From positions 1-22,089 of IMG/VR virus record IMGVR_UViG_3300037320_000039: DNA of 22,089 bases, one strand, 5' to 3'. Source of the DNA: a virus. The notes below the pieces were generated by a model, which saw only the letters and a list, made by a program, of their open reading frames with translations, did not search any database and was not told where the DNA came from. This document shows positions 5,980 through 22,089 of this stretch, piece after piece. Each line of letters starts with the position of its first letter. Within the stretch, counting starts at the first letter, position 1. The translations under genes were made by a program, and so were the position numbers.

Positions 5980-6003
5980 AAAAGGGGTAATTTTCATACC
6001 CCT
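5980..6003 (-). terminator. Hairpin terminator after the major capsid gene
   Basis: AGGGGTA (5983-5989) pairs with TACCCCT (5997-6003) around a seven-base loop. On the minus strand the stem is followed by four T and then a mixed A/T run. It starts nine bases after the capsid stop codon and ends about 15 bases before the next ATG at 5965. The short T tract suggests partial termination. Confidence 0.7.
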
Positions 6004-6011
6004 AATTAATA

Positions 6012-7028
6012 TTATCCTCCGTAAAGTACACCGTCAGGGTGTGACATTACAGTTGCATCTAGTGTGTAGATTGTTCTCACAAACATTACATCACTATCGT
6101 TTGCTACCTTTCCAGTTTCAAATGAAGCCACATCTGCCATAGAATCAGTACTCATAAAAATAACTGAAGGTCTTTGAACGTAAACAAATCCTGTAGGGAA
6201 TGGAACGAACTCGATAACAACTCCATTAAATGAAATTATTTCGGCCTTTCCTGTTCCAGTCACTAAGAAGTTCACTTGTTGCGCTGCACCTACTGCATTG
6301 TTTGCAGTTAAGATTAATTGTCTATGCTCATAAGGTGCGTACATTACTGGTAATTCAGGCGCTTCAAAACTTTCAGGCTTAATTTTTACAAATATTTTTC
6401 CGTACTCAACAGCAATGTTTCCAGATGTCAAAGTTGTTCCTGCTACCTTAATGTAGGCTCCCAATGCTGTTTCATCAAATAACACTCTTGACAATACACC
6501 GTCTACTCCTGCCGGATCAGCTGTGTATCCTGCCGCTGCTGCTTTTGCAGATGTAGAAATACTACCTTGTGCCGCGCCAGCTGTTAATCCCGCAATTGAT
6601 GCTTGAGCACCTGCAGAAAATGCTGACCAGAATTTTAATTGAGCATCTTGTGATGTCTTAGGTCCTGTCAATTGTAACACCTGAGTGTTAAACTCGTTGC
6701 TATCAATGTTAAAAGCTCCAGTTGCCATGTCTTTATTAAAACGAGACTGTCTTAATGCTTCCATTTTAAACGTGTACTTGTACTCGATTTTTTTAGGATT
6801 AGCGACACGGTCTCTTAATACTGGCCCACCGCTTGAAGCTAATGCTTCTCCTGTATAGGCTTGACCTACTACAGTTACGGAAGTTTCCGTGATAATTGTC
6901 GATGCTTTTACGTCATCGGCAAAGTTTACAATACCTTTCTCAACCGTTTTGTTGGCGAAAAAGATTTCTTGAATAATTGGTGAGACTGCCTCTCCTCTAA
7001 TTGCTACTGGGCTGTAAGTTAATGCCAT
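6012..7028 (-). CDS. Major capsid protein
   Basis: This 338-residue protein is the likely HK97-fold major capsid protein. The context is characteristic: a protease with a coiled-coil tail, one small gene, and then this gene. Features include a helical N-terminus with SPIIQEIFFANKTVEKGIVN (residues 16-35), in keeping with an N-arm and spine helix. A central segment rich in alanine, serine and glycine (about residues 140-175) follows. Later come KIFVKIKPESFEAPELPVMY and a beta-rich C-terminus (FVPFPTGFVYVQRPSVIFMS, then VMFVRTIYTLDATVMSHPDG). The length is normal for the family. It starts at ATG 7028 with an A/T-rich leader without a Shine-Dalgarno motif and is followed at once by a terminator hairpin. 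No motif alone is diagnostic; the assignment rests on length, composition and neighbours. Confidence 0.78.
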   Translation of the reverse strand: MALTYSPVAIRGEAVSPIIQEIFFANKTVEKGIVNFADDVKASTIITETSVTVVGQAYTGEALASSGGPVLRDRVANPKKIEYKYTFKMEALRQSRFNKDMATGAFNIDSNEFNTQVLQLTGPKTSQDAQLKFWSAFSAGAQASIAGLTAGAAQGSISTSAKAAAAGYTADPAGVDGVLSRVLFDETALGAYIKVAGTTLTSGNIAVEYGKIFVKIKPESFEAPELPVMYAPYEHRQLILTANNAVGAAQQVNFLVTGTGKAEIISFNGVVIEFVPFPTGFVYVQRPSVIFMSTDSMADVASFETGKVANDSDVMFVRTIYTLDATVMSHPDGVLYGG

Positions 7029-7057
7029 AGTTGTCTAATTTATTTTTTTGTTAATTT

Positions 7058-7402
7058 TTAAGTGAAATACGCTATTGCACTTATTGTTCCTAAGTTGTTT
7101 AATGTTCTAGTAGCAATAACACGATGATACCTATTCCTTAATCCTGAAAATGGAATTGTAAAAACACTATTACCCGCACTTGCTGTTTGAGTTGCTGCTT
7201 CAAGTGCATCCCAATTAATACCATCGTTAGATTCTTGCATCGAAATCACAACATCCCCCGTACCTATTGAATTCGCTATAACTTGTAAACCAACAGTAGC
7301 AGGATTGTACCTAATAGGTAAAGTTTCCATGTCCATAGCAGGACCCGTAAAAGCTACTCCTGCAGGCGTCCCTAATGGTATTAATTGAATTAACGTCCCC
7401 AT
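7058..7402 (-). CDS. Small beta-rich structural protein between protease and capsid
   Basis: This 114-residue protein starts at ATG 7402 directly after the protease stop (TAAATG arrangement). The N-terminus (MGTLIQLIPLGTPAGVAF) is followed by what looks like a single beta sandwich (GDVVISMQESNDGINWDALE, then NSVFTIPFSGLRNRYHRVIA). The 'ES-x-DG-x-NWD' turn is familiar from small structural proteins of many Bacteroidota phages, which contain a domain of this shape. Its place between protease and major capsid protein suggests a capsid decoration protein or head-fibre base. This is inferred from position; I cannot name the family. Confidence 0.6.
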   Translation of the reverse strand: MGTLIQLIPLGTPAGVAFTGPAMDMETLPIRYNPATVGLQVIANSIGTGDVVISMQESNDGINWDALEAATQTASAGNSVFTIPFSGLRNRYHRVIATRTLNNLGTISAIAYFT

Positions 7403-8419
7403 TTACTTAAATTTTTTGTCTCTGTATCTTTCTAATGCGCTCATTTCTTCAACGTTTTTCCCGTCCGAAGCTGGTTTCAATCCCTTCTTTAACTCGTCCG
7501 TCATTTCAATTGATACCTTTTTAATGGCAGCGTTTTCTTTTGACATCATAGTGTTACCTTCTTTTAATGCTACAATTTGCGCTTTAAGATCATTGTTCTC
7601 AGCTTGCAAATCATCCATCATCTTTGTCATGTCTGGCTTAGCTTCTTCCTCCGCATCTTCCTCCACAAATGGAACCGCGTCAATAACAAATCCGTTCTCG
7701 TCGGTTGTCATTACTAAGCCGTCAATTGTTTCGGTAATACTTGCAAATGGCACTCCGTCAATGTCAGTAAGTAAACCCCCAATTTCTTTTTTGTCTAAGT
7801 AATAGGCTTTCTCTCCTACCATGTACATGTCGCCTAAGGCCTCAGCCATAAGTACTTTCTTAACGCGTGCGTTAAATTCTTCGTCTGTCATTTCTATCTT
7901 TTTTTCTTCGGTTAATACTGGTTCTAAATAAGCTTCTATTGAAAAGCCTTGTAATTTTCCTGATTTTATGTCTTGCCAAACTTCTGCGTTATCAACTTTT
8001 TGCGCCATGACAAGATCACCTTTTCTAACATCCATTCCAATAACTGCCGCCTTGTCTCTTTCCGCATCCATTACGATCCAACTTTCAAAAATATACATGT
8101 CACTTCTAATCTTTCCATCATGGTTAACAGTAGCGCCGTTGTGACTATTATTTTTAAAGAAGTTTTGCTGCAAATTCTCAACTGTCTCCTCGCTGTAGAA
8201 TACCATTGCGGGCTCTCCGTTTATATCTTTTCTTGGGATTAAAATGTTTGGCCGCATTGCAACTGAATAGATTACTTGCTTTTCTTCGTCTGCAAATTGC
8301 AACAATTTAGATTCGTCGTCAAACATTACTAGAGTAGTTCTTGTCGCGGGACTTTCTACCGTCGACATTCTAAAAACTCCCGTTTCTCCTTTTGTATATT
8401 GTAATTCGTATTTTTTCAT
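7403..8419 (-). CDS. Prohead protease (XkdF-like) with C-terminal scaffold-like coiled coil
   Basis: This 338-residue protein matches the XkdF-like phage serine protease pattern. A histidine lies in KNNSHNGATVNHDG (near residue 93). The signature ESWIV...VRKGDLVMAQKV follows at about residues 112-142. The likely catalytic serine is in KLQGFSIEAYLEP (near residue 160). The rest (about residues 175-338) is acidic and then strongly coiled-coil (MMDDLQAENNDLKAQIVALK), ending in a basic tail (LERYRDKKFK). Protease fused to a scaffold-like tail is a known design in which capsid assembly is guided and the scaffold then cleaved. I chose ATG 8419 (MKKYELQ). An in-frame TTG five codons upstream lies next to the terminator T tract and is less likely. 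A terminator hairpin sits 12 bases before this start. Confidence 0.82.
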   Translation of the reverse strand: MKKYELQYTKGETGVFRMSTVESPATRTTLVMFDDESKLLQFADEEKQVIYSVAMRPNILIPRKDINGEPAMVFYSEETVENLQQNFFKNNSHNGATVNHDGKIRSDMYIFESWIVMDAERDKAAVIGMDVRKGDLVMAQKVDNAEVWQDIKSGKLQGFSIEAYLEPVLTEEKKIEMTDEEFNARVKKVLMAEALGDMYMVGEKAYYLDKKEIGGLLTDIDGVPFASITETIDGLVMTTDENGFVIDAVPFVEEDAEEEAKPDMTKMMDDLQAENNDLKAQIVALKEGNTMMSKENAAIKKVSIEMTDELKKGLKPASDGKNVEEMSALERYRDKKFK

Positions 8420-20219: not shown

Positions 20220-20276
20220 TAATAAATTTAGTTTATGTTTATTTTTTTAACGCTTTGTTAACAATTGCTTTTTATA

Positions 20277-20580
20277 GCGTTCAATTATTGAACGCTCTGT
20301 TCAGGGCTTAAAGTCAATGGTAGTAAGGGCTGCCACGTTTTTTGAACGCTTGAACGCAAAATTGAATATCTTTTTATTAATACATACGTACGCATAGAAG
20401 TATTATATATTATATTAACAATATTATTCTTACATATATTATATATCTATATGTAATAATATGTAAGAATTTATAAGTTTCTAAAAAGATATTTAGAATT
20501 GCGTTCAAGCGTTCAAAACTTACGGCAAGCCTTGCTATCATTGATAAAAAGCCTGAACACAGCGTTCGTGACTTGAACGC
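20277..20580. repeat. Seven perfect GCGTTCAA/TTGAACGC units plus one degenerate copy
   Basis: Perfect octamers occur at 20277-20284, 20288-20295, 20342-20349, 20350-20357, 20501-20508, 20509-20516 and 20573-20580. A degenerate copy (GCGTTCGT) is at 20562-20569. They are mirrored about the centre: an outer pair and an inner tandem pair on each side. The tandem pairs are head-to-tail with no spacer, and the unit GCGTTCAA begins every eight bases. This is the signature of a protein binding cooperatively. Confidence 0.85.
20426..20470. repeat. AT-rich inner palindrome of the origin-like region
   Basis: ATTCTTACATAT (20426-20437) and ATATGTAAGAAT (20459-20470) are perfect 12-base inverted repeats around a 21-base A/T centre. 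They lie inside the core between the two large arms but are offset by about 20 bases from the large dyad centre. The stretch would melt or extrude easily. Confidence 0.75.
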
Positions 20581-20656
20581 TATTTTTGCAAAATTGTAAG
20601 TTAAATATTATATTGCTGTTAAATTTAACAAAACTTTTGTAGGAATGTATATAAAC

Positions 20657-20681
20657 AAAAAAACCGCTTTTTAGGGCGGTT
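20657..20681 (-). terminator. Rho-independent terminator after the 58-residue gene
   Basis: AACCGC (20662-20667) pairs with GCGGTT (20676-20681) around an eight-base loop. On the minus strand the stem runs into seven T residues. It lies 47 bases after the stop of the 58-residue gene and protects the origin-like region from transcription arriving from the replication genes. Confidence 0.82.
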
Positions 20682-20989: not shown

Positions 20990-22089
20990 TTAACTATTTA
21001 AAATTTTATTAATACTTCCCAAGCTTATCGAAAAATGTTTAGCCAATGCCCGCTGGCTCATGTTAGGGTCCTTTGTATGCAATAGTTTTACCTTTTCCAA
21101 TATTGTCATACCCTTAGTGTCAAATAAGATGTTCTTGGCCTCCTTTTCGCTTGACACTTCTTTGCTAACCAATTCATATTGAAACATGAAATATTTTACC
21201 AACCGTATTGCTTTTTTAACTGAACCCACATTTATTTGTGCGTCTCTTAATTTCTGGAATGGATAGACGTAAACGCTGTCGAGAATATGCATAAGTAAAA
21301 TAAAGCGACCAAAGTATGTGGCCATCTTGCTGTAAGCGCTTTTTGTGCCGTTAGATAGTTCCGAGCCGTCCGCGATCATATCTTCAATTTTTCCGTTATA
21401 GTCAAACCAAAGATCTTTCGCCTCATTATCCATGTGGTAATAATCCACATTAAGATCACCGTTTTCTTTTGTAAATTCTGTTTCTTTTATTAATTCAAAT
21501 AAGCCACGTACATAGCTATCGTAATTGTTAGCAACATTACCACCTACATCTTCTTTGGTCATTTTACCAGTTTGAAAGTTACCACTAACGAATAAAAATC
21601 TGTCCCAGAAACCATTGTCTTTTAATTGTTCGGTCATTAGACTTGTTAATATTTTAGGCTGAATTCCTCCGAAAATTGGTAAATACGGATCGTAAAGTAT
21701 GGAGGACATACCTACTCCTTTTCTAGCTGCTGAAATATCAGAGTAGGAAAAAGCAGAAAGATACTTTTCAATATCAGACCCTTTGTTGTACTTTCCTGAA
21801 TTAGCAACAAGACCGCTAATTTCATCCAGAACAATCGCTACCCCTCTTAAATTCTGGCTATGTATCTGTATGTAGGCTTCGATAGTTGCGTCGCCAACGT
21901 ATAATCTTGGCTGAACAGGTTTATCGTCGCTTACATCGTCGCTGTGCGCTTTTAACTTAGACAGGTAATCTTTATACATTTCTGATTCAATCGACCTAAT
22001 AGGCTTCATAAAAGGGGCAGTCGATGGGGTTTTTTTACTTCCCGCTTCCCCAATAATAATATTCCAGAATACCGCCCACTCTCTCCATG
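20990..22089 (-). CDS. DUF3987-type P-loop replication protein (5' end outside window), with C-terminal HTH
   Basis: The open frame continues through the right edge, so the real start is outside the window; an internal ATG at 22009 should not be taken as the start. Just upstream of that ATG the frame encodes WRE-WAVFWNIIIGEAGSKKTP, a P-loop in which the usual sixth glycine is lysine. DUF3987 proteins commonly relax this position (for example to methionine). A Walker B-like GVAIVLDEISGLV follows, and then YLPIFGGIQPKILTSLMTEQ and NGFWDRFLFV, phrases typical of the DUF3987 ATPase core. The last 25 residues (MSQRALAKHFSISLGSINKI) form a helix-turn-helix. Members are found in phage and plasmid replication modules and are thought to act as helicase/primase-associated ATPases. 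Its place next to the origin-like repeats fits replication. Confidence 0.75.
   Translation of the reverse strand, partial: WREWAVFWNIIIGEAGSKKTPSTAPFMKPIRSIESEMYKDYLSKLKAHSDDVSDDKPVQPRLYVGDATIEAYIQIHSQNLRGVAIVLDEISGLVANSGKYNKGSDIEKYLSAFSYSDISAARKGVGMSSILYDPYLPIFGGIQPKILTSLMTEQLKDNGFWDRFLFVSGNFQTGKMTKEDVGGNVANNYDSYVRGLFELIKETEFTKENGDLNVDYYHMDNEAKDLWFDYNGKIEDMIADGSELSNGTKSAYSKMATYFGRFILLMHILDSVYVYPFQKLRDAQINVGSVKKAIRLVKYFMFQYELVSKEVSSEKEAKNILFDTKGMTILEKVKLLHTKDPNMSQRALAKHFSISLGSINKILNS

Follow-up and report, generated by a model that had tools for sequence, protein, structure and literature searches.

Helicase gene and mirrored repeat element

The window, that is, the whole 22,089-base virus record analyzed here, carries terminase, portal, and tape-measure genes on its minus strand and ends within a gene encoding a DUF3987 protein, so that the 5′ end of this gene and all DNA upstream thereof lie outside the window. 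In a Pfam scan, the encoded protein matched DUF3987 (E 1.7e-43), with a weak C-terminal helix-turn-helix (HTH) match and no match to DUF927. A sequence profile search of solved structures with the helicase returned nothing useful. When its AlphaFold2 model (pLDDT 84) was used for fold comparison, MCM chains came out on top of the matches listed (best Z 15.4, rmsd 3.6, 259 residues); SaPI Rep structures were absent among these matches, which is still compatible with a distant kinship. We therefore predict an AAA+ helicase of the MCM-like kind that ends in an HTH; DUF3987 proteins have been previously predicted to be replicative helicases of mobile elements (PMC5862659).

On the 3′ side of the helicase gene, 393 bp from the DUF3987 stop, lies a large inverted repeat (Table 1). 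A minus-strand self-BLAST recovered it at positions 20274-20583 (71% over 321 columns, E 3e-42), and a repeat search delineated arms of 72 nt (76%) and 32 nt (84%), consistent with the match at 79 of 102 arm positions reported originally. The arm alignment score of 63, compared with a mean of 13.8 and a maximum of 26 in 1,000 dinucleotide shuffles, shows that the repeat is real; the best other 337-bp segment of the window clear of the element scored at most 19. Nine perfect copies of the octamer GCGTTCAA are present in the window, and the seven that had been claimed for the element, in mirror order, were all located there (20277, 20501, and 20509 on the plus strand; 20288, 20342, 20350, and 20573 on the minus strand). 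From left to right, an outer palindromic pair and an inner tandem pair precede the core, followed by the mirror image, in which the eighth octamer is degenerate. The pentamer GTTCA, found in nine copies against 0.4 expected, is the unit that matters, with the octamer and the TGTTCAGG block representing two contexts of it. The core does span the predicted 107 bp but, at 84% A+T (about 90% in its best 80 bp, vs. 65% for the window), falls short of the almost pure A/T composition ascribed to it. The predicted terminator on one side of the element corresponds to a terminator-like stem.

Table 1. Features of the helicase-element locus (window coordinates)
Feature	Position	Strand	Remarks
Whole element, proposed replication origin	20261..20597	.	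Inverted repeat; arm-score shuffles
Outer iteron GCGTTCAA	20277..20284	+	Half of 21-bp palindrome AGCGTTCAATTATTGAACGCT
Outer iteron	20288..20295	-	Other half of 21-bp palindrome AGCGTTCAATTATTGAACGCT
TGTTCAGG	20298..20305	.	Additional GTTCA site; mirror at 20552-20559
AAAGTCAATGG block	20310..20320	+	Between outer and inner groups; motif common to phage elements
Inner tandem iterons TTGAACGCTTGAACGC	20342..20357	-
AT-rich core	20379..20485	.	84% A+T; proposed unwinding element
Inner tandem iterons GCGTTCAAGCGTTCAA	20501..20516	+
Shared block, right-arm copy (TTTATCAATGAT)	20537..20548	-
CCTGAACA	20552..20559	.	Mirrors TGTTCAGG
Outer iteron, degenerate	20562..20569	+	GCGTTCGT
Outer iteron TTGAACGC	20573..20580	-
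Terminator-like stem	20662..20681	-	Ends helicase-side operon before the proposed origin; stem also in relatives L056, L062, L063
DUF3987 gene, predicted MCM-like AAA+ helicase, proposed initiator	20990..22089	-	5′ end lost at contig end
Helicase C-terminal HTH tail, proposed iteron reader	20993..21127	-

Conservation of the layout in phages and plasmids

Relatives were collected from IMG/VR in scans that used as query the helicase, the small terminase, or an alignment. An inverted element occupies the same place in L056-L062, L071, L072, and L079, as well as in the more distant L264, L265, L268, and L270-L273. The DUF3987-adjacent architecture is found in at least 10 distinct related phages and several plasmids. 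The common plan consists of mirrored outer and inner repeat groups around an AT-rich core. With the elements aligned on this core and the groups assigned by hand from element coordinates, most elements display four groups spaced by approximately 60-70 bp, center to center, whatever the repeat word. The words themselves vary among relatives (GTTCA, GTTCG, GGTTGC, GTTAAC, GATTCA, TGTCC, and GGTGTAAA; as listed by element, GCGTTCAA, ATGAACA, GTTCG, GCAACC, GTTAAC, AAGATTCA, AATGTCC, GGTGTAAA, and ACTTCACA), and in close relatives with different repeats, conservation along the alignment is highest in the AT-rich core. A AAAGTCAATGAT-like block between the groups is common to the phage elements (212 vs. 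155-176 in shuffles); when elements from plasmids and genomes were tested, the motif learned from phages was absent (combined p=0.89). A universal block, CTTGCTATCATTGAC, was considered and rejected: as a 17-mer, it yielded 32 matches in 257 Gb, about the number expected by chance, and the tested plasmid and genome elements lack the motif.

In whole-locus scans, the top bidirectional 8-mer cluster mapped just 3′ of the DUF3987 gene in most related phages and was usually the only such cluster. Among plasmids, clusters lie 3′ of the gene in L276 (Priestia; +202) and in L287 and L289 (Bacteroidales; +44 and +20), whereas five cyanobacterial plasmids have them within the gene, in its 3′ end, at -390 to -538. 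The latter (L275, L280, L281, L283, and L284) each carry a private 8-mer in 6-12 copies, in both orientations, at a near-constant distance from the stop. The exceptions to the scan were L262, L269, L266, L274, L282, L286, and L288, with no cluster at the expected place in L262, L269, L282, L286, and L274; in L285, the cluster next to DUF3987 ranked second best. The elements of L056 and L062 fell below the scan threshold because their repeat flanks vary. In L266, eleven GTTCAAAA repeats (1500-1950) are located upstream, not downstream, of the DUF3987 gene.

The positional rule was assessed out of sample by searching 395 Bacteroidota genomes with PF13148 and taking 55 matched regions, with the top cluster scored as positioned at the gene 3′ end when it fell between -600 and +1200 from the DUF3987 stop. 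Any cluster was detected in 23 of the 55 loci, and the top one was at the gene 3′ end in 16 of these 23, compared with 4.8 expected (p=7e-7). The scan found no cluster in the other 32 loci, so either many chromosomal DUF3987 genes lack an origin of this kind or the scan misses theirs. In a control set of 167 unrelated viral loci (1.42 Mb), strong clusters were present in only seven; these were of two kinds, with six belonging to one family.

Further repeat elements were also noted. In one phage family (L137, L141, L147, L190, L205, and L228), a stretch of at most 400 bp contains seven copies of ACCTTCAC, in both orientations, and is a candidate for a different type of origin. In L131 (~6000-6450), seven ATTACAGA repeats and a CTTGCTATCATTGAC block make up an element that looks similar but lies between the genes for a DEAD-type helicase and for a different type of primase-helicase; given this other initiator, the layout may be wider still. 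In another phage group (L119, L146, L158, L172, L173, L179, L184, L187, L198, L219, and L220), a non-coding element recurs in which CTTGCTATCATTGAC is flanked by AGTTAC/GTAACT repeats.

Covariation of the repeats with the helicase tail

The repeat word and the C-terminal HTH of the helicase covary. The helicases of L060 and L061 are 97% identical, and 8 of their 15 differences are concentrated within the last 45 residues (p=2.7e-5); the element of L061 contains 12 copies of GTTCA and none of GTTCG, whereas that of L060 contains eight copies of GTTCG and none of GTTCA. In a set of 24 elements, the more similar the tails, the more similar the repeats, also after correction for the remainder of the protein (partial r=0.44, p=0.0003); the 8-mer words entering this correlation were hand-picked, and closely related pairs contribute strongly to it. 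In the clade of the window, the tail is almost constant, and GTTCA is retained, with variation in the flanks alone. The near-identical tails of the window and L056 helicases are, however, associated with different bases flanking GTTCA, which counts against the explanation proposed below. A reader of the octamer other than DUF3987 was considered, because the helicases of L056 and L062 share 97% identity with that of the window and the octamers differ; this objection is resolved by the common core GTTCA, with only the flanks being different. From the sequence comparisons, the DUF3987 helicase is probably the protein that recognizes the element.

Near the helicase gene, several relatives encode an N6/N4 DNA methyltransferase with a conserved frame and a hypervariable middle (L056:6835-7428, L057:4892-5518 and 6823-7440, L058:9117-9719); L057 has two versions, and an extra copy in L059 is split into two open reading frames. 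Marking of the repeats by this enzyme was rejected, given that L056 and L062 have the same repeats and different hypervariable regions and that L060 has no methyltransferase match in the stretch examined. The variability possibly reflects shuffled specificity against host restriction.

Proposed function of the element and alternative explanations

The element is very probably the site where genome copying starts in a phage of Bacteroidota-type bacteria, judging from sequence comparison. Under the full explanation, to which we assign a probability of roughly 0.83, it is a phage replication origin run by DUF3987 through GTTCA iterons, melting of the AT-rich core, and bidirectional loading. The helicase would bind GTTCA-core iterons through its C-terminal HTH, with one multimer, presumably a hexamer, on each arm, and the mirrored arms would place one helicase ring on each side of the core, with the two rings oriented in opposite directions. 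We infer that the core would then melt and the rings load, with replication running bidirectionally; the DUF6371/zinc-ribbon protein encoded upstream in relatives is the probable primase. As partners, the initiator tail and the iterons would drift together, leaving each phage with a private origin word. The interpretation of the original prediction is thus sustained as far as the origin is concerned, by the layout conserved next to the helicase and by repeats that track its DNA-binding tail; two of its side claims are not supported. The proposed GC-skew check showed no turn at the element, an uninformative result because the skew follows the gene strand. Points against the explanation are the 32 Bacteroidota DUF3987 loci in which the scan detected no cluster and the five other loci (L262, L269, L274, L282, and L286) that lack one where it would be expected.

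The foremost alternative, itself quite unlikely, is that the element serves in regulation, as an operator or as a control region acting in both directions, with the repeats bound by a repressor of the flanking operons. A suitable repressor could be the small HTH protein of ~100 aa, with a C-terminal HTH resembling the helicase tail, that adjoins the element in L057 (7920-8234), L060 (8091-8405), L062 (7593-7895), and L063, and promoter-like sites in the core modestly outnumber those in shuffles. However, the gene for this protein is missing from the window, L056, and L059, the cyanobacterial plasmids have their cluster within the helicase gene and not at a promoter, and at least eight sites, arranged in four groups of fixed geometry around a core of 80-90% AT, are more than an ordinary operator would have. 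The small protein may act as a repressor or in copy control, in competition for the iterons, and a regulatory side role of the element is possible as well.

Less likely still is an origin that depends on DNA structure, as in pRN1, where the initiator would recognize a large stem-loop located on the 3′ side of the replication gene. The arms of the window are 71% complementary, and the essential stem-loop of pRN1, ~100 bp in length, has diverged in sequence with its structure kept (PMC4234260). Once the iterons are masked, however, every element except L059, which remains clearly above, has an arm complementarity equal or close to that of shuffled sequence: the arm score of the window falls to 18 against a shuffle maximum of 17, and most elements are in the shuffled range. 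Because repeat masking largely removes the arm complementarity, and the shared block in L072 is a direct repeat, the element is not a hairpin, and the suggestion that the arms fold as a whole can be abandoned.

Two further functions are, to an equal extent, the least probable of those considered. For a terminase packaging site (cos/pac), the small and large terminase genes do lie 0.8-3 kb beyond the element, but the element tracks the helicase gene, including in plasmids, which need no such site, and where other genes intervene, and is not tied to the terminase. A partition (centromere-like) or incompatibility site would fit the repeat arrays typical of such sites and the ParA/ParG genes near the DUF3987 gene of some cyanobacterial plasmids, but the cluster in these plasmids is inside the DUF3987 gene, not by parA, and no partition protein was found among the window proteins searched. 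A mobile, MITE-like inverted-repeat element, for which dispersed copies had been named as the signature, was rejected: the phage and plasmid collections contain no copy, and genome matches are confined to the AT-rich core.

Beyond the window, the odds somewhat favor the view that DUF3987 helicases define a large, previously unrecognized class of self-specific replicons, found in several phyla among both phages and plasmids. In this class, the 3′ end of the helicase gene would carry an origin of four iteron groups in mirror order, with a word rewritten along with the C-terminal HTH, such that near-identical phages can differ in origin specificity. DUF3987 proteins are common in mobile elements and annotated as unknown, and the element provides a testable origin for this helicase family; the part of the full-text literature on DUF3987 that was searched describes no origin and mentions no iterons, which does not prove novelty. 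The combination of switching repeats with a constant position and geometry provides a rule for locating origins in uncultured phages and plasmids, and origins of this kind suggest shuttle-vector replicons for Bacteroidota. L060 and L061 represent a natural near-identical pair with an apparently changed origin specificity, which makes the protein-DNA code directly testable.

Comparison with known replication origins

The pRN1 origin also includes an essential inverted repeat just 3′ of a replication gene; it is, however, a stem-loop without iterons, whereas here the symmetry is carried by iterons. In phage P4, the initiator helicase alpha likewise acts on origin repeats (ori, crr), which are bound by its winged-helix domain (PMC4234260), but alpha fuses primase and helicase, unlike the separate helicase gene, of another family, found here. 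The C-terminal domain of SCCmec Cch2 binds short iterons directly downstream of its own gene, in a putative origin, although these are only three direct iterons, and inverted repeats are dispensable for Cch2 binding (PMC7581432).

The closest parallel is with the pri-rep-ori region of SaPI/PICI elements. The original prediction knew of no element with this layout, which holds for flavobacterial phages as far as searched but not for SaPI/PICI origins, as described in two reports (PMC6092414, PMC7581432). In these elements, the origin lies directly 3′ of the initiator helicase gene, in SaPIs just downstream of rep, where it is read by the C-terminal domain of Rep (PMC7581432); PICI origins always comprise two iteron sets flanking an AT-rich region, as does the element described here (PMC6092414); and the iterons are element-specific and recognized by a C-terminal DNA-binding domain (PMC6092414, PMC7581432), a recognition that is predicted in our case, in line with the covariation of tail and repeats. 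The differences are that the SaPI Rep helicase family corresponds to DUF927 (PMC5862659), from which the DUF3987 helicase is set apart by sequence, that the DUF6371/zinc-ribbon protein is separate and encoded upstream, that the repeats follow a four-group mirror geometry, and that the host of the element is a tailed phage, not a satellite. With its helicase outside the SaPI Rep family by sequence, the system would resemble SaPI/PICI in its working without being a member, and, by analogy, the best reading of the element is a SaPI/PICI-type rep-ori layout run by DUF3987, in which AT-rich DNA with a set of iterons on each side follows the gene of the initiator helicase.
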